This document shows, in pieces, positions 10,648 through 33,280 of a stretch of DNA of 33,871 nt. The stretch lies in contig JAADHO010000016.1 in NCBI GenBank assembly GCA_013151775.1, forward strand, positions 1 to 33,871, given 5' to 3'. This DNA is from Deltaproteobacteria bacterium. GTDB taxonomy: Bacteria; Myxococcota_A; Polyangia; Polyangiales; Houyiibacteriaceae. Below the pieces are notes generated by a model that did not search any database, was not told where the DNA came from, and worked only from the letters and a program-made list of their open reading frames with translations. Position numbers and translations under genes: made by a program. How positions within the stretch are numbered: position 1 is the stretch's first letter; each line of letters begins with the position of its first letter.

Positions 10648-10651
10648 AGGA

Positions 10652-10909: not shown

Positions 10910-10919
10910 AGAGTCCGAG

Positions 10920-11033: not shown

Positions 11034-11041
11034 GAGGTATC

Positions 11042-11410: not shown

Positions 11411-11428
11411 TCGACCGAGAAGAGAATC

Positions 11429-11824
11429 ATGGCTAAAGCGAAGACCAAGTCCAAGGGCAAGAAGAAGGCGAAGAAGGTCGCCGGCACGGGCATCGCCCAC
11501 GTGCAGTCGACCTTCAACAACACCATCGTCACCATCACCGACCTGAGCGGAGATGTGGTGTCGTGGTCGACAGCGGGTTCGCGAGGCTTCAAGGGCTCGC
11601 GGAAGAGCACGCCCTTCGCGGCTCAGCTCGCCGCCGAGACCGCAGCGCGTAAGGCTCAGGACATGGGCATGAACACCGTCGCGATCTTCGTGAAGGGCCC
11701 GGGCGCAGGCCGTGAGTCGGCCCTCCGCGCTTTCCAGCATGTGGGCATGCGCGTGACTCTGATCCGCGACGTGACCCCGATCCCCCACAACGGCTGCCGC
11801 CCTCCCAAGCGCCGCCGCGTCTGA
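11429..11824 (+). CDS. rpsK: 30S ribosomal protein S11
   Basis: S11 lines the mRNA exit channel on the platform. The 131-residue product has a lysine-rich N-terminus, then [51 protein letters not shown] and the highly conserved C-terminal [20 protein letters not shown]. Length is normal. It lies between rpsM and rpsD. Confidence 0.98.
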
Positions 11825-11839
11825 ATCGATAGGAACGTC

Positions 11840-12466
11840 ATGGCTCGTTATACTGGACCCGTCTGCAAGCTCTGTCGCCGTGAGGCGATGAAGCTCTTCC
11901 TCAAGGGAGAGCGCTGCTACACCGACAAGTGCTCCTTCGACAGGCGCCCCTATCCTCCCGGTCAGCACGGACAGCGCCGGATGAAGTTCACCGAGTACGG
12001 CATCCGTCTGCGTGAGAAGCAGAAGGTTCGCCGCATCTACGGCATGATGGAGAAGCAGTTCCACGCTGTCTTCAACGAGGCCGAGCGCGTGAAGGGCGTC
12101 ACGGGCGAGAACCTGCTCGCCCTGCTCGAGCGCCGTCTCGACTCCGCCGTCTACCGCTTGGGACTCGCGCGTACGCGCTCTGAAGCCAGGCAGCTGGTTC
12201 GTCATCGGCACTTCTCGGTCAACGGCCACACGGTGAACATCCCCTCGTTCCTCGTGAACCCTGGCGACAAGATCCAGGTGCGTGAGCGCAGTCGTCAGAA
12301 GGCGGTCTTCACAGCGTCTGTCGAACAGGCGGGCCGGCGTGGAACCCCCGAGTGGCTAGAGCTCGACAGCGCTTCCCTCGAGGGCACCATCAAGGCTCAG
12401 CCCAACCGCGAAGCGCTCACCCTGCCCATCCAAGAGCAGCTCATCGTCGAGTTCTATTCACGCTAG
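11840..12466 (+). CDS. rpsD: 30S ribosomal protein S4, cysteine-containing
   Basis: S4 initiates small-subunit assembly and affects fidelity. The 208-residue product has standard length. The N-terminal segment carries four cysteines (C9, C12, C26, C31) in the pattern of the zinc-binding S4 type. The central [38 protein letters not shown] is the S4 RNA-binding domain. An 88-nt spacer leads to rpoA. Confidence 0.97.
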
Positions 12467-12554
12467 TCCGAGCCTGAGCGCGGCCAGCGTTGGTCGCCAC
12501 CGCACCGCGCCGCATCGGGCGCCACCGTAGACCAAGCGAATTTCGGAGACCCCT

Positions 12555-13577
12555 ATGACCACCAGCACCCTCGTCGCCCGCAACTGGCGCTCGCTCATCC
12601 GCCCGAAGAGCCTGCCTGTCGATCAAGAGACGGCCACGCCCTACTACGCGAAGTTCGTCTGCGAACCTCTCGAGCGTGGTTTCGGCATCACCCTCGGCAA
12701 CTCTTTGCGACGCATCCTGCTCTCCTCGCTGCAGGGCGCGGCGATCACCGCTGTGCGCATCGATGGCGCGTTGCACGAGTTCACCTCCGTCCCCGACGTC
12801 GTGGAAGACGTCACGGAGATGGTGCTGAACTTCAAGGAGGTGATCGTCCGATGCCACACGGCCAAGACGCAGACCCTCCGCATCGACATGGAGGGTCCCT
12901 GCACCGTCACGGCGGGTGACATTCAGGTCAATGACCAGGTCGAGGTGCTCAACCCGGAGCGCGTGATCTGCAGCGTCGCCAAGGGTGGTCGCTTCAGCGC
13001 GGACCTCACGATCAACGTGGGTCGTGGCTATGTGCCGGCGGATCGCAACAAGGTGCCCGGCATGGCCATCGGTACCATCCCGATCGACGCCCTCTACTCG
13101 CCGGTCACCAAGGTCAACTACACCGTGACCAACGCCCGCGTCGGTCAGGTCACCGACTTCGACAAGCTCGCGCTCGAGGTCTGGACGGACGGTTCGGTGA
13201 ACCCGCAGGACGCCGTGGCGTTCGCCGCCAAGATCCTCAAGGAGCAGCTCAGCATCTTCATCAACTTCGAGGAAGAGGAAGAGTCGCTCGAGTTCGAGAC
13301 GGACGAGGAGCCGCTGAACGAGAACCTCTTCCGCTCGGTCGAAGAGCTCGAGCTCTCTGTGCGTTCGGCGAACTGCTTGCAGAACGCAAACATCAACCTG
13401 ATCGGTGAGCTGGTCCAGAAGACCGAGCCCGAGATGTTGAAGACGAAGAACTTCGGTCGGAAGTCCTTGAAGGAGATCAAGGAAATCCTCGCTGATATGG
13501 GCCTCTCGCTCGGCCTGAAGATCGACAACTGGCCCCAGATGCTCGAGCGTTGGCAGACACTTCAGGCGAACCAGTAG
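12555..13577 (+). CDS. rpoA: DNA-directed RNA polymerase subunit alpha
   Basis: The alpha subunit dimerises to nucleate RNA polymerase assembly and its C-terminal domain binds UP elements and activators. The 340-residue product has the N-terminal [28 protein letters not shown] motif, then [11 protein letters not shown]. After an acidic linker (about residues 235-258) comes the C-terminal domain, with [18 protein letters not shown] and [22 protein letters not shown]. Both domains are intact. Confidence 0.98.
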
Positions 13578-16649: not shown

Positions 16650-16829
16650 ATGAAGAACCTTCGCCTCAATCAGCTCGTTCGCGATGAAGAGGGTCTCTCG
16701 ACCGTCGAGTACATCATCATCCTCGTGCTGATCGCCGTTCTCGGCATCGTGGCGTGGCGCGCCTTTGGTAGCGCCGTCAAGGCCAAGGTGCAGTCGTCCA
16801 CCGATCAGGTCCAGTCTCTCGGATCCTGA
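16650..16829 (+). CDS. flp: Flp/Fap type IVb prepilin
   Basis: This is the major pilin of a Tad pilus. ATG 16650, about 9 nt after a GGAGAG site, gives 59 residues. A short charged leader ends in glycine (G15), the prepilin peptidase cleavage site. It is followed by LSTVEYIIILVLIAVLGIV with the +5 glutamate (E20) and the adjacent tyrosine (Y21) that mark the Flp family. The rest is a short polar tail. The in-frame upstream start at 16506 lacks support. The tad genes follow after 291 nt, and higher expression of flp than of the rest is likely. Confidence 0.95.
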   Translation: MKNLRLNQLVRDEEGLSTVEYIIILVLIAVLGIVAWRAFGSAVKAKVQSSTDQVQSLGS

Positions 16830-17120: not shown

Positions 17121-17903
17121 ATGAATCGAACGGCACTATTGGCTGCTGTGGTGGTAGCCGTGGTCGGAGTCATACTCTTCGGCCTCTACATGAAGCGCTT
17201 CGAGACCGAGGTGCAGGGCGGTGAGCCTGTACAGGTCCTGATCGCGACCGCGGACATCCCGGCGGGGCAGCCTTTGACTCGGGCGGCCTTGGGGACTCGG
17301 GAGCTACCGACGAAGTACGTCGAGGACAGGCACATCCGCGCGAGCGATCAAAATCGCGTGCTCGGAGTGAAGCTGAACAACCCGGTCAAAGCCAACGAGT
17401 CGCTGCTCTGGACCGACCTCGCGACGACCAGCCAGGAGCGTCGACACCTCTCCGAGTTGCTCAGGCCGGGCATGCGCGCGCTGACGATTCGGGTGGGAGA
17501 CAGCAGCGCCTTCGGCGGTCTGTTGCGTCCCGGCGATCGTTGTGACGTGCTCTTGACGGCTACCCGACCCGGAAGCGAAGAGCAGGTCACTGTGCCTTTG
17601 CTTCAGAACGTGCTCATCCTGTCGGTGGGGCAGGACACGGGGGGTCCGGACGCTCGAGACGGGAACGGTCGAAATCGCAGCGGTCGCGACGTGAACGTAG
17701 CGGTCACCATCGAGCAGGCTGCGCTGCTGACCCTCGCGGACGAGCGCGGGCGCTTGCGCCTCGTGCTGCGCAATCCCGAGGACGTCACCATCCTCGAGGG
17801 CCTCCCGGACACCACCGCCACCGATCTGATCGAGGCCGCACGCCGCGCCGTCCGTCAGACCCGTCGGCCTCCATCTACGCCCATGATCGAGAGAATCCAA
17901 TGA
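17121..17903 (+). CDS. cpaB: Tad pilus assembly protein CpaB/RcpC
   Basis: CpaB is a periplasmic, membrane-anchored partner of the pilus secretin. The 260-residue product has one N-terminal membrane helix (about residues 4-23), then the SAF domain with VLIATADIPAGQPLTRAALGTRELP, and LLRPGMRALTIRVGDSSAFGGLLRPGDRCDVLLT, the RcpC/CpaB signature. The C-terminal part has a TIEQAALLTLADERGRLRLVLRNPED segment typical of the family. It overlaps cpaC by 4 nt (ATGA), indicating coupled translation. Confidence 0.93.
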   Translation: MNRTALLAAVVVAVVGVILFGLYMKRFETEVQGGEPVQVLIATADIPAGQPLTRAALGTRELPTKYVEDRHIRASDQNRVLGVKLNNPVKANESLLWTDLATTSQERRHLSELLRPGMRALTIRVGDSSAFGGLLRPGDRCDVLLTATRPGSEEQVTVPLLQNVLILSVGQDTGGPDARDGNGRNRSGRDVNVAVTIEQAALLTLADERGRLRLVLRNPEDVTILEGLPDTTATDLIEAARRAVRQTRRPPSTPMIERIQ

Positions 17904-19111
17904 TCCCCCATCTTCGCGCCTCGCTTCACCTGTCGCTGGTCGTCGGCTTCGGCCTGGCGGTCTCTGGCGCTTCGGTGGCAAGGGCTCAGAACCGCACGGT
18001 CGATCTCGAGCTCGACGTCGGCCAGCAGACCAGCATCTCCGCGCGCAACGTGCGCAGCTACTCCGAGGGTGTGGGCGGGATCGCCGCCGTGCGCCTGACG
18101 GAGGACCAGACGCGCTTCGTGATCGTCGGTCAGCGCGCTGGCACGACGTCGCTCCTGTTGATCATGCAGGACGGAGGCCAGACCCAATATCGTATCACCG
18201 TGGGAGGCGGAGAGCCCGAGACGGACGACACGGACGGCGTGCCTGAGCGCGAGAACATCCGCCTCGACCTCTACTTCGTTCAGCTCTCGGACTCCTACTC
18301 CCACTCCATCGGCCTCGGCTGGCCCGGCTCCCTCGGCTCCGATAGCACGCTGACCGCCAACATCACCAGGATCCCTCCCACGGTCGGAGCCGGTGGCATC
18401 GTCACCACCCCTGCGCGGAACGAGACCACCTTCGCCCTGATCGCTCAGACCGCGCTGCCCCGCTTGGAGCTCGCGCAGGCCAGTGGTTGGGCGCGTGTCT
18501 TCCGTCAGGCCGCCGTGGTCACGGCCAACGGCACACGAGCGGAATTCCAGAACGGTGGTGAGGTGAACATCATCGTATCGGGTGGGCTCACGGGCGCGCT
18601 GCGGACCATCGAGTTCGGCACCAAGCTGAAGATGCTCCCGCGTTACGATCCCGAGACTCATCGCCTCGAGGTTCAGATCGACGCAGACATCTCCGACCTC
18701 ACAGACGACCGTGGGACGGGCGTTCCCGGGCGCATTACCTCACGGGTGCGCAGCCTGGTGAACCTCGAATTGGGTCAGTCCATCGTGATCGCTGGCATCA
18801 TCGCCCGCACGGACACTCGCTCGCGGACGGGCCTCCCCGGCCTCAGTCAGATCCCCGTCATCGGCGCTCTCTTCGGTGTGCACGCACGCCGCGAGGAGCA
18901 GAACGAGGCACTCCTCTTCATCGTCCCCAGCGTGGTCGAGGCGGTCCCCCTGACTCGTCGAAATCGCATTCAGGAGGCGCTCCGCGTGTACGAGGACTTC
19001 CGCGGTGGCACCGAAGAGGTCGAGCTGCTCGAGCAACCTCGCATTCGTCGCCGCAGCGGTTCAGCCGCTAGCTCGACTCCCATCACCCGAGGGAGCGAGG
19101 GTTCGGACTGA
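17900..19111 (+). CDS. cpaC: Tad pilus outer-membrane secretin CpaC/RcpA
   Basis: This would form the outer-membrane channel through which the Flp fibre passes. The 403-residue product has a signal peptide (about 1-29, ending ARA), then the pilus-secretin N-terminal domain (VDLELDVGQQTSI...). The C-terminal secretin domain has LVNLELGQSIVIAGII (about 286-301), the GLPGLSQIPVIGALF motif (about 311-325) and EALLFIVPSVVEAV. This length is short to normal for CpaC. A short charged tail follows. The FHA-CpaF gene starts 2 nt later. Confidence 0.94.
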   Translation: MIPHLRASLHLSLVVGFGLAVSGASVARAQNRTVDLELDVGQQTSISARNVRSYSEGVGGIAAVRLTEDQTRFVIVGQRAGTTSLLLIMQDGGQTQYRITVGGGEPETDDTDGVPERENIRLDLYFVQLSDSYSHSIGLGWPGSLGSDSTLTANITRIPPTVGAGGIVTTPARNETTFALIAQTALPRLELAQASGWARVFRQAAVVTANGTRAEFQNGGEVNIIVSGGLTGALRTIEFGTKLKMLPRYDPETHRLEVQIDADISDLTDDRGTGVPGRITSRVRSLVNLELGQSIVIAGIIARTDTRSRTGLPGLSQIPVIGALFGVHARREEQNEALLFIVPSVVEAVPLTRRNRIQEALRVYEDFRGGTEEVELLEQPRIRRRSGSAASSTPITRGSEGSD

Positions 19112-19113
19112 CG

Positions 19114-20808
19114 ATGACGCCCCGAGTCATCCTTTCGATCGAGATGCCCGACGGGCAGGTCGAACAGCTCCCCTTGGAGGAGTCGTGGCCCGCTGTGATC
19201 GGACGTGATCCCAGCTGTCACGTGGTTCTGCCCTCTCCCGAGGTGAGCCGACGCCACCTGGCTGTGGAGCGTCGCCCACAGGGTTTCAAGGTGACGGACC
19301 AGAGCGCGAACGGCACTCTGATCGGCGACCAGCGCGTGAAGCAGAGCGCGGTGCGCATCCCGCCCGGCGTGCCCATGCGCGTGGGCCCCTACGTGCTTCG
19401 GCTCTACGATCCTGCCTTGGCGGCGGTTCCGCCCAAGGGACCCGAGGCACCCGCGGCGCCCGCAAAGCCCGCGCCGAAGCCGGTCGATCGCAAGTCGCGC
19501 CCACCGTCTGAGCAGCTCTCGCTCTCGGGAGGAACGGCGGATGTCAGCGTCGAGCTGCGCCGTCGTGTCCACCGGATGCTGCTCGACTATCTCGATCTCG
19601 CGACCCTCGACCGGTCGCAGATGGACGATCGCTCCATGCGCCCGAAGGTGCACAAGGCGCTCGATCGCATCTTCAGCCAGCTCGCCGCGGACATCCCGCC
19701 AAGCACGGATCTCCAAGCCTTCAGAGGAGAGATGACGGACGAGGCGTTGGGCCTCGGACCATTGGAGAAGCTGCTTGCAGACGACGCTGTCAGTGAGATC
19801 ATGGTGATCGATCCCGAGAACATCTACGTCGAGCGCAACGGCAAGCTCTCGCATACGGACCTGCGCTTCACGGACGACGAGTCAGCACGTGCAGTCATCG
19901 AGCGCATCGTCACACCCCTCGGTCGGCGCATCGATGAGAGCACACCGCTGGTCGACGCGCGCCTCAAGGACGGCTCACGCGTGAACGCCGTGATCAAGCC
20001 GTTGGCCATCAACGGCGCCTGCATCACCATCCGCAAGTTCCAGAAGAACCCCCTCACCATCGACAAGCTCGTCAGCTTTGGTGCCATGACGCGGCAGATG
20101 GCCACCTTCCTCGATCGCTCCGTTCGCGTTCGCAAGAACATCGTGATCTCCGGAGGCACGGGCTCGGGCAAGACGACTCTGCTGAACGTGCTCTCGAGCT
20201 CGATCCCCGATCACGAACGCGTCATCACCATCGAGGACGCGGCCGAACTGCGCCTCGAGCAGCCGCACGTCGTGTCTCTCGAGACTCGCCCCGCCAACAT
20301 GGAGGGCAAGGGCGAATACTCGATCCGCGACCTGGTCAAGAACGCCCTGCGCATGCGTCCAGACCGCATCGTGGTCGGAGAGTGTCGCGGTGGCGAAGCC
20401 CTCGACATGTTGCAGGCCATGAACACGGGCCACGAGGGCTCCATGACCACGACCCACGCCAACAGCCCGCCCGAGGCGGTGAAACGTCTGGAGACCCTGT
20501 GCTTGATGTCGGGCATCGAGCTGCCCTCGCGCGCCATTCGCGAGCAGATCTCCGGGAGCATTCATCTGATCGTTCAGCAGTCACGCTTTAGTGACGGGTC
20601 GCGTCGCATCACGCGCATCACCGAGCTCGATGGTTTGGACGAGAACCTCGAGTTTCGGCTCCACGATATCTTCGCCTACTATCGCACCGGGACCGATGCG
20701 AAGGGCAAGATCGTCGGCGAGTTTCGGGCGAGCGGTTATCTCCCCTCGTTCCTCGACGAGTTCATCACCAACGGCTTGGTCGACGCCGATGGTGGGGAGT
20801 ATTTGTGA
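19114..20808 (+). CDS. cpaF: FHA-CpaF fusion: Tad pilus secretion ATPase with N-terminal phosphothreonine-binding domain
   Basis: CpaF/TadA is the hexameric cytosolic ATPase that powers Flp assembly. The 564-residue product starts with a complete FHA domain (about 1-100) bearing the phosphothreonine-binding signature: G30-R31, S45 and H48 in SRRH, and N66-G67. An Ala/Pro/Lys-rich linker (about 101-135) leads to the ATPase, with Walker A GGTGSGKT (347-354), the acidic IEDAAELRLEQPHVV box, Walker B DRIVVGECRGGEA (417-429) and the His box TTTHANSP (about 445-452). FHA fusion suggests control by Ser/Thr kinase signalling, an inference. The tadB GTG overlaps its stop by 4 nt. Confidence 0.95.
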   Translation: MTPRVILSIEMPDGQVEQLPLEESWPAVIGRDPSCHVVLPSPEVSRRHLAVERRPQGFKVTDQSANGTLIGDQRVKQSAVRIPPGVPMRVGPYVLRLYDPALAAVPPKGPEAPAAPAKPAPKPVDRKSRPPSEQLSLSGGTADVSVELRRRVHRMLLDYLDLATLDRSQMDDRSMRPKVHKALDRIFSQLAADIPPSTDLQAFRGEMTDEALGLGPLEKLLADDAVSEIMVIDPENIYVERNGKLSHTDLRFTDDESARAVIERIVTPLGRRIDESTPLVDARLKDGSRVNAVIKPLAINGACITIRKFQKNPLTIDKLVSFGAMTRQMATFLDRSVRVRKNIVISGGTGSGKTTLLNVLSSSIPDHERVITIEDAAELRLEQPHVVSLETRPANMEGKGEYSIRDLVKNALRMRPDRIVVGECRGGEALDMLQAMNTGHEGSMTTTHANSPPEAVKRLETLCLMSGIELPSRAIREQISGSIHLIVQQSRFSDGSRRITRITELDGLDENLEFRLHDIFAYYRTGTDAKGKIVGEFRASGYLPSFLDEFITNGLVDADGGEYL

Positions 20809-21677
20809 GCATGAATCAATTCTTCGGCAGCACTTGGGGTGGTGTTGTGGCGGCGGCGCTGATCGTGATCGGCGTGTCCGCGGCCTTGGCGATTCAGATT
20901 TCCGACCAGAACGCTCCCATGAAAGGCAAGTGGAAGCAGTACGAAGACTACCTCGATGGCATGGCTCGCTTCCTGTTTCTAGCTCAAAGGGGCCGCAGTA
21001 TCGCCCGCGTGCAGGCTGCCGCCGTCGCGGCCTTCTTGGTGCTAGGGGCCATCGCTGGCGAGACGCTGCTGTTGGTGTTGGCGGTGTTGATCGCTGTCGC
21101 CGTGCCCATGATGCTCAAGCGCCGCGTGCGGCAGCGCACGGAGAAGCTCGAGCAGCAGCTCGACGGCTGGCTCTTGATGCTCGCGAATGCGCTCAAGGCG
21201 ACGCCGGCCATCGGTGAAGCCATCAAGTCCACCGTGAACCTCGTGCAGCCACCCATAAGCCAAGAGCTAGATCTGATGGTGAAGGAGAATCAGCTCGGAA
21301 CTCCCGTGGATCAGGCCGTGTTGAACATCTCCGAGCGTGTGGGCAGTCCGCTCATCTCCGGTGCTCTGGCGACCCTGATCATCGCGCGCCAGACCGGCGG
21401 CGATCTGCCGAAGATCCTCGAGACCTCTGCGGGTTCTCTGCGCGAGATGGCGCGCCTCGAGGGAGTGGTTCGCGCCAAGACCTCCGAGGGCAAGGGGCAG
21501 GTCATCGTGCTCGGCGTGATCCCCTTCCTGATGGTTGGCCTGCTCGGATCCATCGATCCGACGTGGCTCACGCCGCTAACGAGCAACTTCATCGGCTACA
21601 TCATCGTTACCGTCGCCGTGACGCTCTGGCTCGGGGCCATGCTCTGGTCTCGCCAGATCCTCGACGTGGATATCTGA
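20805..21677 (+). CDS. tadB: Tad pilus inner-membrane platform protein TadB
   Basis: TadB and TadC form the inner-membrane platform that CpaF acts on. The 290-residue product has an N-terminal membrane helix, a second hydrophobic pair near residues 68-105, then the T2SSF domain with LDGWLLMLANALKATPAIGEAI and GALATLIIARQTGGDLPKILE. It ends with two more hydrophobic stretches (VIVLGVIPFLMVGLLG and IGYIIVTVAVTLWLGAML). It starts with GTG 20805 overlapping cpaF, and an alternative ATG lies two codons in. Confidence 0.92.
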   Translation: MSMNQFFGSTWGGVVAAALIVIGVSAALAIQISDQNAPMKGKWKQYEDYLDGMARFLFLAQRGRSIARVQAAAVAAFLVLGAIAGETLLLVLAVLIAVAVPMMLKRRVRQRTEKLEQQLDGWLLMLANALKATPAIGEAIKSTVNLVQPPISQELDLMVKENQLGTPVDQAVLNISERVGSPLISGALATLIIARQTGGDLPKILETSAGSLREMARLEGVVRAKTSEGKGQVIVLGVIPFLMVGLLGSIDPTWLTPLTSNFIGYIIVTVAVTLWLGAMLWSRQILDVDI

Positions 21678-21680
21678 GCC

Positions 21681-22580
21681 ATGCCCGCTGAATACATAGG
21701 CCTCGCAGCGCTCGCGCTGATCTTCGCAGGCACCGCCCTGGCTACCTTCGTGTTGGCCAAGAACCCCATCGCGGACCGCCCCGACCTCGGCCGTCGCGGA
21801 CTGAAGCGATCCCTTGCGCTCGAAGAAGGGGGCGTCTTCAAGACCATCGAGCTGCCCATGCGCATCGTCTCGGGGTGGGTTAGCGGACTCGCTCTCGACA
21901 ATCTTCGGAGCAAGCTCGACAAGCAGATCACCTTCGCAGGTGACTATCTCGGTCTGACCGCCAACGACCTGATCGGGCTCAGCATCGTCAGCGGTGTCGG
22001 CAGCATCACCTTCGCGCTGCTCGCGTCGAATCTCCTCGGGCTGCCGAGCTTGATGGTGGTCTTCGCCGGAGCGGTCGGATTCTACCTGCCTTTCTTGCAG
22101 CTTGGTGGCGTGCGCCAGGAGCGCTTCAAGGCGGTCAACCGATCCTTGCCCACGGCCATCGACCTCGCCGCTCTCTGCATGGGCGCCGGTCTGGATTTTC
22201 CCGGGGCGCTGCGTCAGGTCGTAGAGAAAGCCAGCAGCCGCGACGTGGTCATCGTCGAGGAGTTCAACCGAATTCTGCAGGAGCTCGAGCTCGGTCACAC
22301 GCGCCGCAAGGCTCTGGAGGCGCTCGCCTATCGCGTCCCGACGGAGGCCGTGAAGGATTTCGTGGGAACGGTGGTTCAGGCCGAGGAGAAGGGCACGCCC
22401 TTGGCCGAGGTGCTCACCATTCAGGCGCGTATGCTGCGCATGCGACGCAGCGTCATGGCCGAGGAGTCCGCCGCCAAGGCGGGCATGATGCTGATGGGCC
22501 CTCTGATGATGATGTTCATCTGCGTACTCTTTCTTCTCGTCGGTCCCTTCATCGTGAAGTGGATGAATTCTGGGATGTGA
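21681..22580 (+). CDS. tadC: Tad pilus inner-membrane platform protein TadC
   Basis: This is the second T2SSF-domain platform protein. The 299-residue product has an N-terminal helix, a central hydrophobic pair (LIGLSIVSGVGSITFALLASNLLG and LMVVFAGAVGFYLPFLQL), the domain motif LPTAIDLAALCMGAGLDFPGALRQV, and EFNRILQELELGHTRRKALEALAYRV. A C-terminal membrane helix lies in MLMGPLMMMFICVLFLLVGPFIV. It begins 3 nt after tadB, and the FHA-like gene follows after 6 nt. Confidence 0.92.
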   Translation: MPAEYIGLAALALIFAGTALATFVLAKNPIADRPDLGRRGLKRSLALEEGGVFKTIELPMRIVSGWVSGLALDNLRSKLDKQITFAGDYLGLTANDLIGLSIVSGVGSITFALLASNLLGLPSLMVVFAGAVGFYLPFLQLGGVRQERFKAVNRSLPTAIDLAALCMGAGLDFPGALRQVVEKASSRDVVIVEEFNRILQELELGHTRRKALEALAYRVPTEAVKDFVGTVVQAEEKGTPLAEVLTIQARMLRMRRSVMAEESAAKAGMMLMGPLMMMFICVLFLLVGPFIVKWMNSGM

Positions 22581-22586
22581 ACCTCC

Positions 22587-23450
22587 ATGGACGCTTTCGT
22601 CGAAATTACCAGACCGGATGGCTCGTCCGAACGCTTCCCCATCGAGGGGGCGCAGGCCACCCTCGGTCGTTCGGGCACCGCGGGCATCTCCCTGCCCGCG
22701 GAGTCTCAGCTCGAGCTCGAGCACATCCTGATCGCGCCGCGAGGTAAGGAGGGCTGCTGGATCTCGGCGTCCCAGGGCGCCATGACGCCGGTGATGGTGA
22801 AGGGACGTCCCTTCCAGAGCGGTATATTGAAGTGGGGCACGAGCCTCTCCATCGGCAGCCTCAAGCTCACGGTGACCAACAAGCGCGCGGCCACCAAGGG
22901 TGGACAGAATTCGGTCAGCCCCGTGCTCGTGCTCGGGCTCGTCGCCGCCCTCGGCGCCCTCGCGTGGATGTTCCTGTCGGAAGAGCCTGCCAGCATGCCT
23001 TCGGCCGAGGGCATGGAGGCCCCGCCGCTCTTCACTGACGAAGCCGTCGAGTGTCCGGCCGGCCAGACGGGTCCCCAGCTCGAGCAGGCCGCCGACAGTC
23101 GCGGCGATCGCTACGTCTACGATCCGCGGGATGGCGTCGCCTCCGTGCGACTCTACAAGGAAGCCGCCGCGTGTTTCGCAGCCTCGGGGGCTATGCACGC
23201 AGCCGACGCGCAGCGCGCCACTCGTGAGAGCCAGCAGATGCAGTCCACGATAGACGCGGACTACGCGGCTCGCCGTTTGCTCTTGGGTCGGGATCTCGAG
23301 ACCGAGGATTGGCGCTCGGTCGAGCGTCAGTCCAACGCGCTGCTCTCCATGACGCGACATCTCGAAGGCAACGACTGGCGCGCCTGGCTCGATCAGGTGC
23401 ATCGCATCGCTCAGGCTCGGGCCTCGCAGCTGCCTGAAGAACGGCGGTGA
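22587..23450 (+). CDS. FHA-like domain membrane protein in the Tad operon
   Basis: The 287-residue product has a cytosolic N-terminal domain (about 1-97) with an FHA-like strand pattern and GRSG at 27-30. The usual Ser of the SxxH motif is missing (ELEH at 43-46), and no NG pair is clear. The fold may be FHA without phosphothreonine binding. A single membrane helix (about 110-130) leads to a periplasmic helical region with cysteines, perhaps TPR-like. No exact family is recognised. It lies between tadC and a lipoprotein gene, so an accessory role in the pilus is likely. Confidence 0.75.
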   Translation: MDAFVEITRPDGSSERFPIEGAQATLGRSGTAGISLPAESQLELEHILIAPRGKEGCWISASQGAMTPVMVKGRPFQSGILKWGTSLSIGSLKLTVTNKRAATKGGQNSVSPVLVLGLVAALGALAWMFLSEEPASMPSAEGMEAPPLFTDEAVECPAGQTGPQLEQAADSRGDRYVYDPRDGVASVRLYKEAAACFAASGAMHAADAQRATRESQQMQSTIDADYAARRLLLGRDLETEDWRSVERQSNALLSMTRHLEGNDWRAWLDQVHRIAQARASQLPEERR

Positions 23451-24169
23451 GTGTTCGCGGCTCGGCACGGACGGAGGCAGCTCTTCGATCCCAGCGGGTA
23501 TTGCTCAGCGCCCTCTTCGCGCTGCTCGGAGTCGTAGGCTGTGGAGGGATCGGGGCTGGGGACCAGGCCAGGATACCGGACCCTCTCGCGGACGTTCCGG
23601 CGCGAGATCTCTTCGCGCGCGGGCGCGTGTTGGTCGTGCATGGAGATTCCATCCGGGCCGAGCAGTACCTCACAGCGGCCATGGACCGCGGCTACCCCGA
23701 GCAAGAGGCCATGCCCTTGCTGATCCGCGCCTGCGTGTCGTCCTCGCGCTTGAGCTCCGCCTTGGGCTACGCAGAGCCCTACCTGCGTCGACATCCCAGA
23801 GATTGGTCCTTGCGCTTCTTGGTGGCGACGCTGCAACAAGGTCTGGGTCGCACCGAGCGCGCGCGCGCGAATCTCGAGCAGGTCATCGTAGACGCTCCGG
23901 AGGCGCCCGAGCCCGAGTTCGTCCTGGCCATGTTGCTGCGCGACGATCTCTCTCTCGACGACGAGGCGAGACCTCTGCTCGAGCGCTATCTCGAGCTGGC
24001 TCCCCGAGGTCGCCACGCCGCCGAAGTGCGCGCCGCTCTGGCTCCCTCGCTCGTTCGCGTGCACGCCCCGGTGGAGATTCGACGAGACCATCCGTCCGAC
24101 GGGGACACACCGAGCGAGTCTCCCATTCCCTCCATCGCGCCTGCCGCAGATTCTGGAGTTCAACCGTGA
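23447..24169 (+). CDS. TPR-like lipoprotein, possibly TadD-type
   Basis: GTG 23447 overlaps the preceding stop (GTGA) and gives 240 residues. A lipoprotein signal ends in the lipobox GVVGC with the modified cysteine at about residue 32. The rest is helical and repeat-like: DLFARGRVLVVHGDSIRAEQYLTAAMDRG, then SALGYAEPYLRRHPRDWSLRFLVATLQQGLGRTERARANLEQVI, and so on, the pattern of TPR units. TadD lipoproteins in Tad loci have this architecture and help pilotin-like assembly. Identity with TadD is inferred. Confidence 0.75.
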   Translation: MSVRGSARTEAALRSQRVLLSALFALLGVVGCGGIGAGDQARIPDPLADVPARDLFARGRVLVVHGDSIRAEQYLTAAMDRGYPEQEAMPLLIRACVSSSRLSSALGYAEPYLRRHPRDWSLRFLVATLQQGLGRTERARANLEQVIVDAPEAPEPEFVLAMLLRDDLSLDDEARPLLERYLELAPRGRHAAEVRAALAPSLVRVHAPVEIRRDHPSDGDTPSESPIPSIAPAADSGVQP

Positions 24170-25278
24170 TCCCGAAGGAAGTCTTCGAGCAGACCATCCT
24201 GAAATTCTTCGATCCCATTCGACCCTATCTCGACGATCCCAGCGTGAGCGAGGTGATGATCAACGGTCCTAAGGAGATCTACATCGAGCAGAAGGGTCGG
24301 CTGCACAAGACGCCGGCGGAGTTTCCCTCGCAGGAGGCGCTGATGAGCGCTCTGCGCAACTTGGCTCAGTTCGTCGGGCGGCGGCTCAGCGAGGAGCACC
24401 CGATCCTCGAGGCGCGTTTCCCCGACGGATCACGCGTCGAGGCCGTGATCCCGCCTGCCTCTCCAGACGGCCCCTCCGTGTCCATTCGACGCTTCTCCAA
24501 AGACACGCTGACGATTCAGAAGCTGCTCTCCTTCGGTTCCATGACCCAGGACGCTGCCTCCGTGCTCGAAGCCCTCGTCGCCTGCAAGCAGAACGTGATC
24601 GTGGCGGGAGGCACGGGCTCAGGCAAGACCTCTCTACTCAACTGTCTCTCCTCCTTCATCCCTGACGATCAGCGCATTGTCGTGATCGAGGACGCTCGCG
24701 AGCTGCAGCTTCAGCTGCCTCACGTCGTACAGATGGAAGCGCAGCCTCCAGATCCGCGCGGCAAGGGTCAGGTCACCATCCGCGATCTCTTCAAGGCCAC
24801 CTTGCGCATGCGGCCCGATCGAATCGTCGTGGGCGAGATCCGCGGCGGTGAGGCCCTCGAGCTGATTCAGGCCATGACGTCGGGTCACGGCGGCTGTCTC
24901 TCCACGGTCCACGCCACCTACCCCATCGACACCCTGAACCGGCTCGAGACCATGGCCATGATGAGTGACGTGGAGATCCCCCTCGAGGCCATGCGCGCTC
25001 AGATCGCCTCGGCCATCGATATGATCGTCCAGACCTCGCGTCTGCTCGACGGATCCCGTTGCGTCACCCACATCACGGAGGTGTTGGGCTACGATCTCAC
25101 CGATGGCTATCAGCTTGGGGACGTCTTCATCCGCCGCTATCTGGGTCGGGACGAGTCCGGCGCCGTGCTGAGTGAGTTCGTACCCACGGGTCGCTTGCCG
25201 GGCTGTCTCGAGATGATTCGTGCCTTGGGGCTGGAGCTTCCAGCCAGTGTATATCAAGCTGCTCAAGCACAGGCCTGA
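24166..25278 (+). CDS. cpaF: Second CpaF/TadA-type secretion ATPase
   Basis: GTG 24166 overlaps the previous stop (GTGA) and gives a 370-residue CpaF without an FHA domain. The open frame extends upstream to 23803 but overlaps the lipoprotein gene, so it is rejected. Motifs present are DDPSVSEVMINGPKEIYIEQKG, Walker A GGTGSGKT (148-155), VIEDARELQLQLPHVVQ, Walker B DRIVVGEIRGGEALE and the His box STVHATYP. It is complete and appears active. It is clearly diverged from the first CpaF 3.4 kb upstream, so it is not a recent copy. Two such ATPases in one operon is notable. Confidence 0.94.
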   Translation: MIPKEVFEQTILKFFDPIRPYLDDPSVSEVMINGPKEIYIEQKGRLHKTPAEFPSQEALMSALRNLAQFVGRRLSEEHPILEARFPDGSRVEAVIPPASPDGPSVSIRRFSKDTLTIQKLLSFGSMTQDAASVLEALVACKQNVIVAGGTGSGKTSLLNCLSSFIPDDQRIVVIEDARELQLQLPHVVQMEAQPPDPRGKGQVTIRDLFKATLRMRPDRIVVGEIRGGEALELIQAMTSGHGGCLSTVHATYPIDTLNRLETMAMMSDVEIPLEAMRAQIASAIDMIVQTSRLLDGSRCVTHITEVLGYDLTDGYQLGDVFIRRYLGRDESGAVLSEFVPTGRLPGCLEMIRALGLELPASVYQAAQAQA

Positions 25279-25307
25279 TCTCAGGCGCAGATCTGAAGAG
25301 GAAATTC

Positions 25308-26813
25308 GTGTCCGCCAACGGAGCAAACCCTAACGTAGTCGCCTTGGCTTGGGCTCGTGTGAAACTCGCCCGAGGTGAGTCGAGCGCAGGACTCTGGGAT
25401 CTCTCGAGCGAGGTCCCCGAGGCTCGCATCGTCGTGGGGTCTGGCCCAGAGGCAGGCTGGCAGGTCCAAGCCCCTGGCGTCTTCCCCGCACATTTCGAGC
25501 TCTTCTGGGATGGCGCCTCCCTGTGGGTGTCCGCCGGGCGAGGCGTCCCCGTCAGCGTCGACGGATCGCCCGTGGTCGATTGGCGGCAGACCGTCGGTAG
25601 GGCTCAGGTCGAGTTCGGTCAGGCGTCCATGAGCATCGAGTCGTCCTTCACGGGTGTCTCCGATTTCGCCGACGATCCCGCCGGCTCGACGGTTGCTACG
25701 GACGACTTCGCAGATTTCGCCGAAGAGGATGAAGGCGTCAAGACCGCCGTCTTCGACCCCAACAGGCACAGTCTCCCGGACGCTCCACCCAAGGCCGAGG
25801 AGTTCAAGGTCGGCTCCACCCGCCTCGTGCGCATGCCCGGTCACGCGGCGCCCGCGGCTCCATCTCACGGCGTGCCCGAGCATGGCGCTCCGCAGGCCGC
25901 TCAGCCCATCGCGGCGGTTCCGGGCTTCGGTGGTGCCGCGGCGGCTCCGAGCTTCGGTGGTGCCGCGGCGGCTCCGGCGGGTCCGATAGACGCCGAGAGC
26001 ACGCGCATTCTCGACACGTCGCAGGGCTCGGACATCCCGGCCTTTGGGGAAGCGGGGAGCACGCGCATCCTCGACACCTCTGCGGATCCGGGCTTGGCCC
26101 CGGCTGCTCGTCCGCAGGTCGGGATCGGCGCCGGTGGGCTTTCGGAGGAGCGCCCCACCGTCGTCCCCGAGCATCTCCAGGCGTCGGCCGCCGCGGTCTC
26201 AGCCACCAAGGAGGCCACGGGGCGTTTTGCGCCGCCACCGCCAAGCGCCGACCCCAAGCCGAACCCCTTCGCGAAGCTGCTCGCGCTGCCCAAGCGCACG
26301 CTGATCCTCGCTGGCGTCACGCTCGTGGTGTCGATCGTGGGGCTCTCCATCGTCATCAGTCAGCGCTCCGCCGAGCAGGTCTACGTGGACGCACAGGCGC
26401 AGCTCGAGGCACAGCAAGCACAGGTCACCGCCGCCGCCGCCGCCCGTGTCGTTCAGGCACGCGCGGCTCGCGAAGCCAGGACCGCTCGCGAGCTAGCGCA
26501 GCAGACGAAGGCCTACGAGGAGGCGGCCCCACCACCGGCGCTCCCGGCCACCGACGCGGACGGTCAGCCCTTGGACGAAGCAGAGCTGGCCGCAGCTCGT
26601 CTAGCGGCGGCTCGTGTTCGCGCCACCGCCGAGCGCGCCGCGGCCGATCTGCTGGTGCAAAACGACTACATCCACGCGCTGCCCCACTATCTTCGCCTCG
26701 CCCGAGACTATCCCGACACCCCCGCCTTCGCTGCCATGGTCCGCATCCTGCGGGCCAAGATCGACGCCTACTGCCGTCTGCCCGCCTCGGCGGGTGACGA
26801 GGCCTGCCAATGA
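25308..26813 (+). CDS. FHA-like / disordered / single-membrane-helix protein with STRIL repeats
   Basis: GTG 25308 is preceded by GAAGAGGAA and gives 501 residues. Residues about 15-115 have an FHA-like strand pattern (RIVVGSGPEAGWQV, PAHFELFWDG) without clear phosphothreonine-binding residues. A long Ala/Pro/Gly-rich disordered region follows, with a 9-residue duplication and STRLVRMPG (170), STRILDTS (231) and STRILDTS (251). One membrane helix lies at about 331-351, then an Ala/Arg-rich coiled-coil-like segment and a short helical C-terminus. No family is recognised. Its place in the Tad operon suggests an accessory or regulatory role. Confidence 0.75.
   Translation: MSANGANPNVVALAWARVKLARGESSAGLWDLSSEVPEARIVVGSGPEAGWQVQAPGVFPAHFELFWDGASLWVSAGRGVPVSVDGSPVVDWRQTVGRAQVEFGQASMSIESSFTGVSDFADDPAGSTVATDDFADFAEEDEGVKTAVFDPNRHSLPDAPPKAEEFKVGSTRLVRMPGHAAPAAPSHGVPEHGAPQAAQPIAAVPGFGGAAAAPSFGGAAAAPAGPIDAESTRILDTSQGSDIPAFGEAGSTRILDTSADPGLAPAARPQVGIGAGGLSEERPTVVPEHLQASAAAVSATKEATGRFAPPPPSADPKPNPFAKLLALPKRTLILAGVTLVVSIVGLSIVISQRSAEQVYVDAQAQLEAQQAQVTAAAAARVVQARAAREARTARELAQQTKAYEEAAPPPALPATDADGQPLDEAELAAARLAAARVRATAERAAADLLVQNDYIHALPHYLRLARDYPDTPAFAAMVRILRAKIDAYCRLPASAGDEACQ
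25923..25976 (+). repeat. 27-bp in-frame tandem duplication
   Basis: Two nearly identical 27-bp units encode GFGGAAAAP and SFGGAAAAP in the disordered part of the FHA-like protein. This looks like a recent slippage expansion. Copy number may vary among strains. Confidence 0.85.
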
Positions 26814-27586
26814 CCTTTTCAGTACGGACTCCCCTCGCCACGTCAGATCGTCTCCGCAGCATCCTGGTCGGCTCCACGAGTCTCCTGTTCCTGCTCGCCG
26901 CCTGTGGTGTGGAGCCGCCGCCGCCGCGCTACGCGGTCGCCTTCTATGCCGAGGCCGACGCGGACGAGCCCTTGGCGGGAGTCGAGATCCTCGCCAACGG
27001 TCAGACCGTTGGCACCAGCGACGACACGGGGCTCGTGCAGGCGATCCTCGAGGGCCCCGAAGGGACACCCTTCGAGATAAGTTATCATTGTCCCGACGGC
27101 CACCGTTCACCCGAGGCGCCTCAGACGCTGCGACTGCGTGCCTTCACTGGGCTCTCCCCAGACGCCTCCACCAGCCTCTCCATGTCCCTCTCCTGTCCAC
27201 CGAACCTGCGTCGTGCGGGCTTCGTGGTGCGCACCAATCAGAAGCCTGGTTTGATCGTGAAGCTCGATGGACGCGAGGTCGCTCGCACGGACGTCGAGGG
27301 TGTCGCTCAGTTCTCCACCGAGGTGGCGCCCGGGACCTCCTTTCGCGTGCAGATCATGACGGGCGAGGACTCCGGTCTTCGTCCCCAGAGCCCCACCTCC
27401 ACCTTCGTGCTCGGAGACGCCGACGACTACTTCATCTTCGATCAGACCTTCGAGGTCGAGCCATCCGGCCGAAGGCGTCCTCGCGTCCGTGGTTCCCACC
27501 GAGCGAATCGTCCCCCCAGACCACGTCGCGGTCCCCGACGCGGTCCCCGACAGATTCGTCGCGTGCCGATGATCAACCACTTCTAG
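26810..27586 (+). CDS. Lipoprotein with PEGA-like beta domains
   Basis: The ATG overlaps the previous stop by 4 nt. The 258-residue product has a lipoprotein signal ending in LLAAC (cysteine at residue 32), a proline run, then two beta-rich modules, the second reading VKLDGREVARTDVEGVAQFSTEVAPGTSFRVQI. This resembles PEGA or carboxypeptidase-regulatory-like surface domains. The C-terminus is very rich in Arg and Pro. It is the last gene of the tight Tad run. Role unknown, with outer-membrane or cell-envelope anchoring likely. Confidence 0.78.
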   Translation: MTFSVRTPLATSDRLRSILVGSTSLLFLLAACGVEPPPPRYAVAFYAEADADEPLAGVEILANGQTVGTSDDTGLVQAILEGPEGTPFEISYHCPDGHRSPEAPQTLRLRAFTGLSPDASTSLSMSLSCPPNLRRAGFVVRTNQKPGLIVKLDGREVARTDVEGVAQFSTEVAPGTSFRVQIMTGEDSGLRPQSPTSTFVLGDADDYFIFDQTFEVEPSGRRRPRVRGSHRANRPPRPRRGPRRGPRQIRRVPMINHF

Positions 27587-31161: not shown

Positions 31162-32171
31162 AACACGGTACCGGCGCCGACCCGCAGGCCCCACACGCCT
31201 GCGTCGGAGAAGGAGGGACCGAAGGGCGTGTCGAGGTTGATCTCGAGACCTGCTGTGACGAAGGAGCGGCCGAAGAGGAAGCGCGCGTAGGGCATCAGAG
31301 CGAACTGAAGGTTGTCGTTGTCGAGTGAGGAGGTGCTCGGCGCCAGATCGGCATACAGCACCATGGTCAGCCGCAGCCCCACGAAGAGCGGGCCCTTGGC
31401 GTGGTACTCGCCATCGGCGCCCGCCTCGATCGAGAGGTTCGTGTTGGCGCCGTCACCCGTGCCGATCAGCAGGGCCGCCGCGCCATCGCCTCCGATCACG
31501 ATGTTCTCTCCCAGATCGCCCTCCACGCGTCCGGTGGCGATCAGACTCAAGCGGTTGGGCATCCACAGCCACGGGTGAAATCCTCCGCGCATCGCCATGG
31601 CGAGACCGATGGCGAGATCCTGCGTGGCGCTGTCGCTGCTCGCGACCGGCAAGGCCAAGCCCGCGCCCACGCGGTAGCGCAGCGAGTCACGGTGCCCGAG
31701 GAGGTCCACGCTGATCAGCGGGTTGCCCAAGCGCAGGGTCGAGTCGGACGGAGTGGTCTCGATCCCGCCCACGGTAATTCCATCGTGGCTCGCTAGGGAG
31801 AAGCCCCACTGGGCCGAGATTCGCGCGCGCGAGGTCAGGGAGTAGGCCGCCCCGATCAGCGGTGATGTGGCGAAGGTGTCGGTCTGCCCGCCTGCGCGCT
31901 CGACTCCGCCGGCGAAGAACGCGAGCTCTGCCCAGAGGGCGAGCTGTCCGCCGCCCTCGGGATCTCCCGTGTCGAAGAGACTGTCGTCCTCCGACTCGCC
32001 GCCTTCCTCGGTCGACTCGGGATCCGCGTCGGGATCGAGAGCGCCCGGGTCGCGCCCGTCGGAAGACGTGTCCGTGGACAGGTTGGACTCTGCGTTGTCC
32101 CAATCTCGACCCTGTGCGTGTGCCACGAGGGGACAGGCGAGGGCGAGCAGGAGCGAGAGCAGCGGCTTCAT
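31158..32171 (-). CDS. Putative outer-membrane beta-barrel protein
   Basis: The 337-residue product has a signal peptide (about 1-19, AHA site), an acidic disordered segment (residues about 25-70, rich in Asp/Glu/Ser), then alternating hydrophobic and polar strands with many glycines, such as RISAQWGFSLASHDGI and LRYRVGAGLALPVAS, consistent with a barrel. It ends GLRVGAGTVL rather than with the common final aromatic. It overlaps its neighbours by 4 nt at both ends. Function is unknown. Confidence 0.75.
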   Translation of the reverse strand: MKPLLSLLLALACPLVAHAQGRDWDNAESNLSTDTSSDGRDPGALDPDADPESTEEGGESEDDSLFDTGDPEGGGQLALWAELAFFAGGVERAGGQTDTFATSPLIGAAYSLTSRARISAQWGFSLASHDGITVGGIETTPSDSTLRLGNPLISVDLLGHRDSLRYRVGAGLALPVASSDSATQDLAIGLAMAMRGGFHPWLWMPNRLSLIATGRVEGDLGENIVIGGDGAAALLIGTGDGANTNLSIEAGADGEYHAKGPLFVGLRLTMVLYADLAPSTSSLDNDNLQFALMPYARFLFGRSFVTAGLEINLDTPFGPSFSDAGVWGLRVGAGTVL

Positions 32172-33280
32172 CGGCCTAGAGTATCATCGCGCCGGGTCGC
32201 GCGGACCACTCTGTCGCGCCCACGGCGTTTGGCTCGGTACAGCGCCTTGTCCGCGGCGGCTAGGATACGCGCGCCGCGCGAGGCGTGGCTGCTCGCGTGC
32301 CGCAGAGAACAGCGCGCGCTGGCCACGCCGACAGAGAGCGTGACCTTGGGCAGCCGGCCGCCGTGGCGCATGGGGCGTTCGTTGATCTCCGAGACCGCCG
32401 CACGGACCGCTTCCGCGAGCTCTTCGGCTCGCTCCAGGCGCTGGCTCGGCAGGATCACCACGAACTCGTCCCCTCCAAAGCGATAGGCCCGCGCGTCCGT
32501 GAGCGCGAGCGCCCGCAGGCTGTGGTCCACCGCCCGTCCAACGCGGCGCAAGAGCTCGCTGCCGGCCCCGTGCCCGAGGCGATCGTTCACCGCCTTCAGG
32601 CGGTCGACGTCGAGGAAGAGCACGCTGAGGTCCGCGTCGGCTGTCCGCGCCTGTCGCGTCAGCTCGGACCCCAGGTATCGTTCGAGGCTGCGCGTGTTGT
32701 AGAGCCCCGTCAGATCGTCGCGCAGCGCGAGTTGATTTTGTTTCAGGATATCGACGGCGTTGAGAATGGCTCGGGAGACGTGCTGCGCGAAGAGCTCCAC
32801 GGTCAGTCGGTCCCGCTCCGAGAAGCGGGCTCGACCTTTGCGGTTCACCAGCTCGAACACGCCGCAGACCTTCGACTCGAGCCGAATGGGTGCCGCTACC
32901 ACGGAGCGTGTCTGGAACGACGCCGACTGATCGACGCTGCCGAAGAAGTGCGGGTCGTCCCCCGGATCCGCCGTCACCCAGGTCACGCCCTCACGATACA
33001 CGTGTCCGACGATGCCTCGCCCGGCCGGCACGTTCATGCCGATCAGCCGCTCCGACGCCGGACCAAAGGCCGCCACGAAGGTCAGGGGCGAGGTCGCACC
33101 TCGTCTGCCGGGCTCGTCCAGGAGCAAGGAGCCGGCCTGACTCGGCACGAGCGTCCGCGCCAAGTCGAGGGTCTGGGCAAGCCACGCGGCCAGCGGCGGT
33201 GGTTCGATCACCGTCCGCCCGCGACGTTTGCGCCCCAGGAAGAGTCTGAGTTGCTCCTCCGGGATGGCGATCGAGGGCAC
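32168..33280 (-). CDS. GAF-GGDEF diguanylate cyclase
   Basis: The enzyme class makes cyclic di-GMP from two GTP. GTG 33280 with a TAGGA site upstream gives 370 residues. A GAF sensor domain lies at about 35-175 (VPAGRGIVGHVYREG, VVAAPIRLESKVCGVFELVN). It is followed by the GGDEF domain with DDLTGLYNTRSLE, FLDVDRLKAVND and the active-site GGDEF (269-273). The usual inhibitory RxxD site is not present, the equivalent place reading ALTD. It is the first gene of a four-gene - strand run. Confidence 0.92.
   Translation of the reverse strand: MPSIAIPEEQLRLFLGRKRRGRTVIEPPPLAAWLAQTLDLARTLVPSQAGSLLLDEPGRRGATSPLTFVAAFGPASERLIGMNVPAGRGIVGHVYREGVTWVTADPGDDPHFFGSVDQSASFQTRSVVAAPIRLESKVCGVFELVNRKGRARFSERDRLTVELFAQHVSRAILNAVDILKQNQLALRDDLTGLYNTRSLERYLGSELTRQARTADADLSVLFLDVDRLKAVNDRLGHGAGSELLRRVGRAVDHSLRALALTDARAYRFGGDEFVVILPSQRLERAEELAEAVRAAVSEINERPMRHGGRLPKVTLSVGVASARCSLRHASSHASRGARILAAADKALYRAKRRGRDRVVRATRRDDTLGR

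Follow-up and report, generated by a model that had tools for sequence, protein, structure and literature searches.

Two CpaF-family ATPases in one Tad pilus operon of a polyangial bacterium, the second a candidate antagonist motor

Introduction

Type IVa pili employ two ATPases, of which the accessory one, PilT, lacks an N-terminal domain and is not known to occur without the extension motor, PilB. The Tad pilus of Caulobacter, by comparison, has a single motor, CpaF/TadA (PDB 8rkd, 8rjf and 9e24), and according to a 2026 paper a single bifunctional motor drives Tad pili in every case (PMC13170226). Here we describe a Tad operon that encodes two different CpaF-family ATPases, denoted CpaF1 and CpaF2. 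It is located in a stretch of 33,871 nucleotides (hereafter the window), i.e. contig JAADHO010000016.1 (C82) of a Deltaproteobacteria assembly (GCA_013151775.1; 6.05 Mb, 460 contigs, 100% complete) placed in the Polyangiales.

CpaF proteins fused to an FHA domain are as such already known, namely as class III CpaF (PMC12019362) and as KilF of the Kil system (PMC8460266). The latter is stated to involve a single ATPase (PMC8460266), and KilF has been treated as the ATPase of both polymerisation and depolymerisation, its deletion alone fully abolishing the pili of Myxococcus xanthus (PMC12075869). In type IVa pili, the platform contact mode of PilT is described as different from that of the extension motor (PMC12019362), and published models have PilT docking by its C-terminal face. 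A search of open-licence PMC papers, without their supplementary files, found no two-CpaF Tad system.

Results

Two complete ATPases in one operon

The operon occupies positions 17121-27586 on the plus strand and consists of ten genes in one direction: CpaB, secretin, CpaF1, TadB, TadC, FHAX, a TPR protein, CpaF2, FHAY and the lipoprotein-like LIP, with an Flp pilin gene in front. All of the Tad component set, i.e. CpaB, secretin, CpaF, TadB, TadC and Flp pilin, is present in the window. From CpaB (17121) to the end of the lipoprotein-like gene (27586), the junctions range from 4-bp overlaps to gaps of at most 29 bp, which makes co-transcription of these genes likely.

CpaF1 (19114-20808) has 564 residues arranged as FHA domain, linker, three-helix bundle, N-terminal domain (NTD) and ATPase domain, the FHA domain covering residues 28-86 (19195-19371; PF00498, E 8.5e-14) and the bundle about residues 146-212 (19549-19749). 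CpaF2 (24166-25278) is a plain CpaF of 370 residues without the bundle. In the Pfam scan, PF00498 and PF00437 (T2SSE) were thus found in CpaF1, and T2SSE alone in CpaF2 (E 3.1e-59). The mechanical open reading frame of CpaF2 begins upstream, at 23803 (TTG); the ATG start is supported by the stop of the TPR gene, which overlaps it by 4 bp. At an E value of 1e-40, exactly two CpaF-level matches were identified in the genome, and its other T2SSE matches are other ATPases.

The two proteins share 47% identity over ~340 residues, and both retain the Walker A and Walker B motifs, the Asp and His boxes and the Arg-finger positions. In CpaF1, Walker A (20152-20175) is invariant in the profile alignment (A2) and Walker B reads RIVVGE (20365-20382); the corresponding motifs of CpaF2 are located at 24607-24630 and 24820-24837, with the His box histidine H249 at 24910-24912. 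The His box is invariant in A2 as well as in the CpaF2 alignment (A1). For residue comparisons, 60 CpaF1 and 117 CpaF2 rows remained after removal of near-duplicates (72 and 151 before), and Caulobacter numbering is used. K287, T288, E312, R223, R347, E357 and G356 are invariant in both sets (60/60 and 117/117), while R217 is kept in 112 of the 117 CpaF2 rows. The nearest named relatives of the window are Myxococcota assemblies, and CpaF2 is 91% identical to its counterpart in a record labelled 'Myxococcales bacterium' (L072). Against this record the ratio of nonsynonymous to synonymous substitution rates (dN/dS) was 0.067 for CpaF1 and 0.069 for CpaF2, i.e. both are under purifying selection. 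This value for CpaF2, together with its invariant catalytic residues, rules out a dead second copy; CpaF2 is predicted to hydrolyse ATP, probably as a hexamer.

Both proteins have NCBIfam TIGR03819 as their best family match, at 336.3 (CpaF1) and 280.9 bits (CpaF2), below the cut-off of 373.15. The solved folds closest to the CpaF2 model are CpaF structures (8rkd_A, 8rjf_A and 9e24_A, ranks 1-3), and phmmer gave 317.9 bits for CpaF2 against solved CpaF. Scores against the VirB11 and TrbB family profiles were below their cut-offs (229.1 of 249.95 and 210.6 of 304.55 bits, respectively).

A sequence-only reading of the window had described positions 19114-25278 as two complete CpaF ATPases in one Tad operon, one of them FHA-fused, with Walker A, Walker B and His boxes retained in clearly different sequences. 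All of this agrees with our results, and the limits of the interval coincide exactly with the first base of CpaF1 and the stop codon of CpaF2.

A second ATPase without bundle and with an altered surface predicted to face the platform

CpaF1 has the architecture of the class III CpaF described in PMC12019362, i.e. FHA, linker, bundle and core. CpaF2 falls in none of classes I-III as these are set out there, since the minimum architecture given includes the three-helix bundle, which was found in CpaF1 and not in CpaF2. In an AlphaFold2 model of CpaF2 (predicted local distance difference test 87.1), helices 4-14 and 16-22 are followed by the first NTD strand and the bundle is absent, whereas the CpaF1 model (residues 139-555) has three helices (8-22, 34-51 and 62-74) before the NTD. 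The same difference is visible in the class sample described below, where untruncated CpaF1 proteins match the profile from model position 3-14, and CpaF2 proteins from 52-77.

Compared with the Caulobacter motor, fold, Walker motifs and Arg fingers are common to both ATPases. A further likeness, in platform-contact residues and the three-helix bundle, is specific to CpaF1, while CpaF2 lacks the bundle, the glycine of the hinge (149) and the acidic E331 of the pore loop, the latter two being missing from nearly all CpaF2 rows. Helix alpha5 (189-200), loop 8 (201-212) and the pore loop (325-337) have been modelled as touching CpaG/CpaH (PMC12019362, PMC11300603). In CpaF2 the predicted platform-facing alpha5/loop 8 region (24331-24402; R64, N65, Q68 and F69) is rewritten relative to CpaF1. 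Position 197 is E in 59 of the 60 CpaF1 rows and R or K in 99 of the 117 CpaF2 rows; 198 changes from R (58/60) to N (109/117), 201 from mostly T to Q (115/117), and 202 from P (58/60) to F or Y (113/117). R206 and D208, both present throughout CpaF1 (60/60), are kept in only 11 and 48 of the CpaF2 rows, respectively. In the extended pore (central) loop (24739-24777), R198 in CpaF2's own numbering replaces E331, a position with E in 59/60 CpaF1 rows and R/K in 81, F/Y in 16 and H in 4 of the 117 CpaF2 rows.

Out of the 19 CpaF1-conserved residues within the three predicted contact elements, 9 are kept in less than 10% of CpaF2 rows, compared with 10 out of 134 in the rest of the protein (Fisher p 4.4e-5). 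As neighbouring positions are not independent, the contact mask was also shifted circularly, and only 2 of 341 positions, the true one included, reached the observed fraction. According to PMC11300603, extension in Caulobacter is abolished by D208K, by the loop change E331K/G332A/S333A/G334A and by the hinge change G147A/G149A, and pilus function is lost when residues 1-146 are removed; removal of the bundle is reported to have abolished expression (PMC12019362). CpaF2 departs naturally at 331, 208 and 149, i.e. at places where changes abolish extension in Caulobacter.

Two old lineages

In an outgroup-free tree (59 rows, LG+C20), CpaF1 and ordinary CpaF (25 rows, including Caulobacter, Sinorhizobium, Rhizobium, Pseudarthrobacter, Chloroflexota and Bacillota) were separated from CpaF2 (34 rows) with a support of 100/100 and a branch of 0.51. 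A quick tree of 110 rows supported the two sides at 94 and 87. Every two-ATPase locus in the trees has one ATPase from each side. There are, consequently, two deep CpaF lineages, and their split across phyla together with the 47% identity rules out a recent or local duplication. When the tree was rooted with TrbB/VirB11, CpaF1 and ordinary CpaF formed a branch (82/100) and the CpaF2 rows were found at the unresolved base, next to a long-branched outgroup; a CpaF2 clade and an older grade are both compatible with this tree.

The outgroup rows of VirB11/TrbB stand apart from CpaF2, which groups with CpaF and away from PilT as well. The sequence-only reading had held that affinity to an unrelated secretion system, or expression apart from the pilus genes, would speak against its proposal. 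The former is ruled out by tree, profile and fold, and as for the latter, the CpaF2 gene is positioned inside the pilus operon.

Co-occurrence across genomes

The order-level sample, searched with CpaF2 at E 1e-40, consisted of 37 genomes from the window's genus, family and order, counting that of the window itself. Matches were found in 28, out of which 27 harbored both ATPases, mostly on the same contig and strand and about 4.4-5 kb apart. The 28th genome (G003) has CpaF1 only, near a contig end, where the CpaF2 position would fall outside. Pairing in this sample is far beyond chance. One genome (G031) has two CpaF1/CpaF2 pairs (C963, C321 and C105; L058, L030, L071 and L040), the second (C105) being more divergent. 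In genus g2 of the window's family (L031-L035 and L037), and likewise in f20 genomes, the CpaF2 matches end ~40 residues early and are without the C-terminal tail.

A class sample of 115 genomes was searched with both profiles, A1 (CpaF2) and A2 (CpaF1 with bundle). When CpaF1 fragments were counted, 43 genomes had both ATPases, two CpaF2 only (G059 and G082), two CpaF1 only (G095 and G127) and 68 neither (Fisher p 1.2e-26, relatedness ignored). With whole CpaF1 genes only, the corresponding numbers were 38, 7, 2 and 68 (p 7.6e-21, relatedness likewise ignored). Among genomes at least 90% complete, CpaF1 was present in 31 out of 32 with CpaF2, and CpaF2 in all 31 with CpaF1. Ten genomes listed with an ordinary CpaF and no FHA-type CpaF1, not counting weaker CpaF-like rows (e.g. 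G129, G053, G061, G084, G104, G139 and G143), were all without CpaF2 (0/10). In two genomes (G112:C117 and G130:C393), an intact CpaF2 is accompanied by no more than a CpaF1 fragment, which may reflect a frameshift in the assembly or a decayed gene.

The phylum sample comprised 237 genomes at least 90% complete. A CpaF2-level match was taken as at least 454 bits with a start at position 1-5, as the start position alone also admitted some CpaF1 rows aligning from position 2-5; counts were made by eye. Among the matches listed, 64 genomes had a CpaF2-level match, and each of the 64 had two or more matches at E 1e-95, the second one being classed in part of these genomes; 56 further genomes had CpaF and no CpaF2. 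In this sample no CpaF2 was seen alone while CpaF was, and the pattern is therefore that expected of a dependent second motor. The co-occurrence across Myxococcota that the sequence-only reading had suggested testing is hence found in both the class and the phylum samples.

The pair is furthermore not confined to the window's order. Records labelled Bdellovibrionales (L132), Lentisphaerae (L143), Planctomycetota (L130), Pseudomonadota (L135) and Myxococcota MAG.506 (L134) likewise hold both genes at one locus, and in other lineages the two genes are unlinked. A cultured carrier is Minicystis rosea DSM 24000.

Gene linkage and operon modules

A locus set was compiled from 80 named loci gathered by CpaF2 similarity, plus the window. 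CpaF1 was found within 9 kb on the same strand for 29 of the 79 plus-strand CpaF2 genes, at a spacing of 3.9-5.0 kb in 26 cases and 6.2-6.5 kb in three; many of the remaining loci are short or hold orphan CpaF2 genes. The next recognised gene after CpaF1 was TadB in 25 out of 26 cases. After CpaF2, TadB or TadC never followed (0/46), FHAY followed in 18/46 and no gene was recognised in 22/46. Among the window's relatives the position of CpaF2 in the operon is fixed.

Where the pair is unlinked, CpaF1-TadB-TadC is found elsewhere (L209 and L211), and FHAX-TPR-CpaF2-FHAY-LIP forms a locus of its own in L210, as it does in L208 without a recognised FHAY. In f37 genomes, CpaF2 and LIP are on the opposite strand to the main Tad locus and separated from it by ~15-19 kb (L214/L215 and L217/L218). 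LIP accordingly stays near CpaF2 even when CpaF1 is unlinked (L208, L210, L215 and L218). No Tad core gene was recognised in the fetched flanks of an orphan CpaF2 in Bdellovibrio sp. (L116).

The distribution of FHA domains varies too. CpaF2-side ATPases with an N-terminal FHA domain of their own occur in L132 (6242-7816) and L135 (7943-9511), where both motors of the pair are FHA-fused. In two CpaF1 proteins the FHA domain appears to be replaced by an N-terminal MinD/ParA-like domain resembling CpaE/TadZ, namely in L196 (385-2553; Bdellovibrio sp. ZAP7, G147), where it carries GGKGGVGKS, and L219 (5792-8053, minus strand; G248). A division into one regulated and one unregulated subunit, as first suggested, is consequently too simple.

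The Kil system of Myxococcus xanthus

At E 1e-25, exactly two CpaF matches each were found in M. xanthus AM003 and Archangium violaceum. One of each is an FHA-CpaF1 between a secretin and an FHA protein (L222 and L224), a neighborhood that matches the kilC-kilF-kilD arrangement described for the Kil locus (PMC8460266), and M. xanthus KilF (L199/L222) groups with FHA-CpaF1. The Kil arrangement of an FHA-fused CpaF beside a short secretin and several FHA proteins is shared by the window and M. xanthus L222. The two differ in that both ATPases are in one operon in the window, while the M. xanthus CpaF2 is located elsewhere (L194/L223). In both M. xanthus and A. violaceum the second ATPase is an orphan CpaF2 in which nothing precedes the NTD and which ends in a long tail, and in Myxococcus no recognisable partner was found around the orphan gene. 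By tree and sequence distance, both M. xanthus ATPases are placed near those of one other Myxococcota group (f19). Instead of the single ATPase described for Kil, two CpaF proteins are thus present in both genomes, possibly serving a shared machine. An orphan CpaF2 of this kind, with a proline-rich tail and no Tad genes recognised around it, is conserved across Myxococcaceae, as in M. xanthus AM003 (L194/L223) and in M. eversor (L128, 8713-10770), whose CpaF2 homolog has the N-terminus MTMYTESLRAFLKPVLPY.

Other genes in the window

All remaining genes of the Tad locus are on the plus strand. The Flp-type pilin (16650-16829) has 59 residues and a type IVb pilin-like N-terminus as read from the sequence, and a profile built from it matches other Tad loci. 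It is followed by CpaB/RcpC (17121-17903; TIGR03177, 166.8 bits against a cut-off of 71, and PF16976) and a short CpaC secretin (17900-19111; PF00263 and PF13629). The platform proteins are TadB/CpaG (20805-21677; PF00482, E 1.3e-10) and TadC/CpaH (21681-22580; PF00482, E 4.2e-16). FHAX (22587-23450) appears to consist of a cytoplasmic FHA-like domain, one transmembrane segment and a periplasmic part; its own profile overlaps the FHA profile. FHAY (25308-26813), the usual gene after CpaF2, is likewise FHA-like, with one transmembrane segment and a periplasmic tail. Neither had a Pfam match in the domain scan. The TadD-like TPR protein (23447-24169; PF13371) lies between FHAX and CpaF2, and LIP (26810-27586) has a lipobox-like N-terminus.

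CpaE/TadZ, TadE/F/G and prepilin peptidase were not found among the scanned operon proteins, CpaE not having been searched for elsewhere in the genome, and no type IV secretion genes were recognised among the operon proteins in the domain scan. Three prepilin peptidase matches are situated on other contigs, namely two neighboring ones on C146 and a single one on C399. The Tad operon is adjoined by a ribosomal-protein-type region (SecY, adenylate kinase and RpoA; 8684-13577), and a GAF-GGDEF diguanylate cyclase (32168-33280, minus strand) is encoded a few kb downstream.

Discussion

We consider it probable that CpaF2 is a second motor of the same pilus, one that never works alone. What this motor does is a more tentative matter, and retraction in particular is put forward as a possibility that falls somewhat short of an even chance. 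CpaF1 would then be the extension motor, since it keeps the platform-contact residues of the single-motor CpaF and is followed by the TadB gene. CpaF2 would hydrolyse ATP and be unable to extend the pilus by itself, as it is without both the bundle and the conserved residues predicted to face TadB/TadC. It may act at the same machine, presumably on the same platform, as a dedicated antagonist, i.e. in a PilT-like role with a CpaF-like descent. The membrane FHA proteins encoded beside it might recruit it after a phosphothreonine signal; the FHA domains of CpaF1, FHAX and probably FHAY suggest switching by threonine phosphorylation. Such a two-motor Tad pilus, with CpaF1 extending and CpaF2 retracting, is the account we favor, if without firm confidence. 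Our preference for retraction rests on three marks that CpaF2 has in common with the accessory type IVa motor, namely no N-terminal domain, a different platform contact and no known occurrence without the extension motor. The likeness to PilB/PilT is one of analogy, and so is the proposed direction of CpaF2, a relative of CpaF and not of PilT. As for the division into extension and retraction motors in the sequence-only reading, the loss of bundle and platform residues and the dependence on CpaF1 fit a motor unable to extend alone, while the retraction part goes further than these observations.

Several points weigh against retraction, or against the shared machine. CpaF2 scores 47.7 bits against the PilT-family profile TIGR01420 (cut-off 319.1), and with CpaF as its nearest folds it bears no resemblance to PilT. 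The platform-contact elements rest on AlphaFold models and Caulobacter mutants, several of which, as their authors caution, had lower expression (PMC11300603), and for the pore loop alone the enrichment of lost residues is not significant (p 0.12). Helix alpha5/loop 8 of CpaF2 resembles that of TrbB/VirB11 (R at 197 and an A.F pattern); the surface could therefore be ancestral instead of an adaptation to retraction. For 20 pairs of the two ATPases, the correlation between their distance matrices is modest (Mantel r 0.37), mirror-tree comparison being weakly informative. Lastly, the orphan, long-tailed CpaF2 of Myxococcaceae could mean another job.

The main rival explanation, which we regard as unlikely though deserving of attention, makes CpaF2 a helper ATPase in the manner of VirB11/TrbB; within the same machine it would leave the platform unturned and instead extract pilins or load tip or effector proteins by way of the FHAX/FHAY/lipoprotein set. 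The TrbB/VirB11-like surface, the model without a bundle and the consistent absence of TadB/TadC after CpaF2 agree with such a role, as does the separate module in L210 (and in L208, without a recognised FHAY) and the presence of LIP near CpaF2 in L215 and L218. CpaF2 is nevertheless nearer CpaF than VirB11 by profile and fold, and the operon scan recognised no type IV secretion genes.

The mixed hexamer proposed in the sequence-only reading survives as a distinctly improbable rival, in which CpaF1 and CpaF2 alternate (3+3) with subunit types matching TadB and TadC. Inter-subunit Arg-finger and active-site residues kept in both ATPases would permit this, the pair is inherited together and published models have CpaF:CpaG:CpaH at 6:3:3 (PMC11300603). 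An obligate hexamer of fixed ratio, however, would be hard to keep where CpaF2 is unlinked or orphan, as in several lineages including M. xanthus, and the single-motor CpaF functions as a homohexamer.

It is similarly improbable that CpaF2 belongs to an unrelated system and is a mere passenger in the operon. The orphans of Myxococcaceae and Bdellovibrio sp. (L116), whose fetched flanks showed no recognised Tad core gene, would fit, but co-occurrence with FHA-type CpaF1 is near-perfect even when the genes are unlinked and the operon position is fixed in the window's relatives. A redundant or condition-specific second extension motor is very improbable, for although both ATPases are intact under similar purifying selection, CpaF2 has no bundle and differs at platform-facing positions where Caulobacter mutants fail to extend pili, and kilF deletion alone suffices to abolish M. 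xanthus pili (PMC12075869).

Read as a two-motor system, the two-ATPase Tad loci contradict the one-bifunctional-motor statement as printed in PMC13170226, in that two CpaF per locus or genome are found where one per machine is expected, the two presumably sharing one machine. A wider claim, which is more speculative than the two-motor account itself, is that a whole Tad/Kil branch (Myxococcota, Bdellovibrionota, Planctomycetota and Verrucomicrobiota/Lentisphaerota) runs on two ATPases, FHA-type CpaF1 for extension and bundle-less CpaF2 for retraction. A division of the PilB/PilT type would then have evolved twice, the second time among CpaF proteins, and the predation pilus of M. xanthus would have its missing second motor encoded away from the kil clusters. 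CpaF2 may be a retraction or helper motor that has long escaped notice. A natural two-motor Tad system, in which evolution has already separated the residue sets, would allow direction to be assigned to sequence, and in M. xanthus the matter of how the predatory Kil pilus retracts would become a one-gene question. The gripping pilus of these predatory-type soil bacteria, the Myxococcota, is encoded with two different motors, as opposed to the single one assumed in the field.

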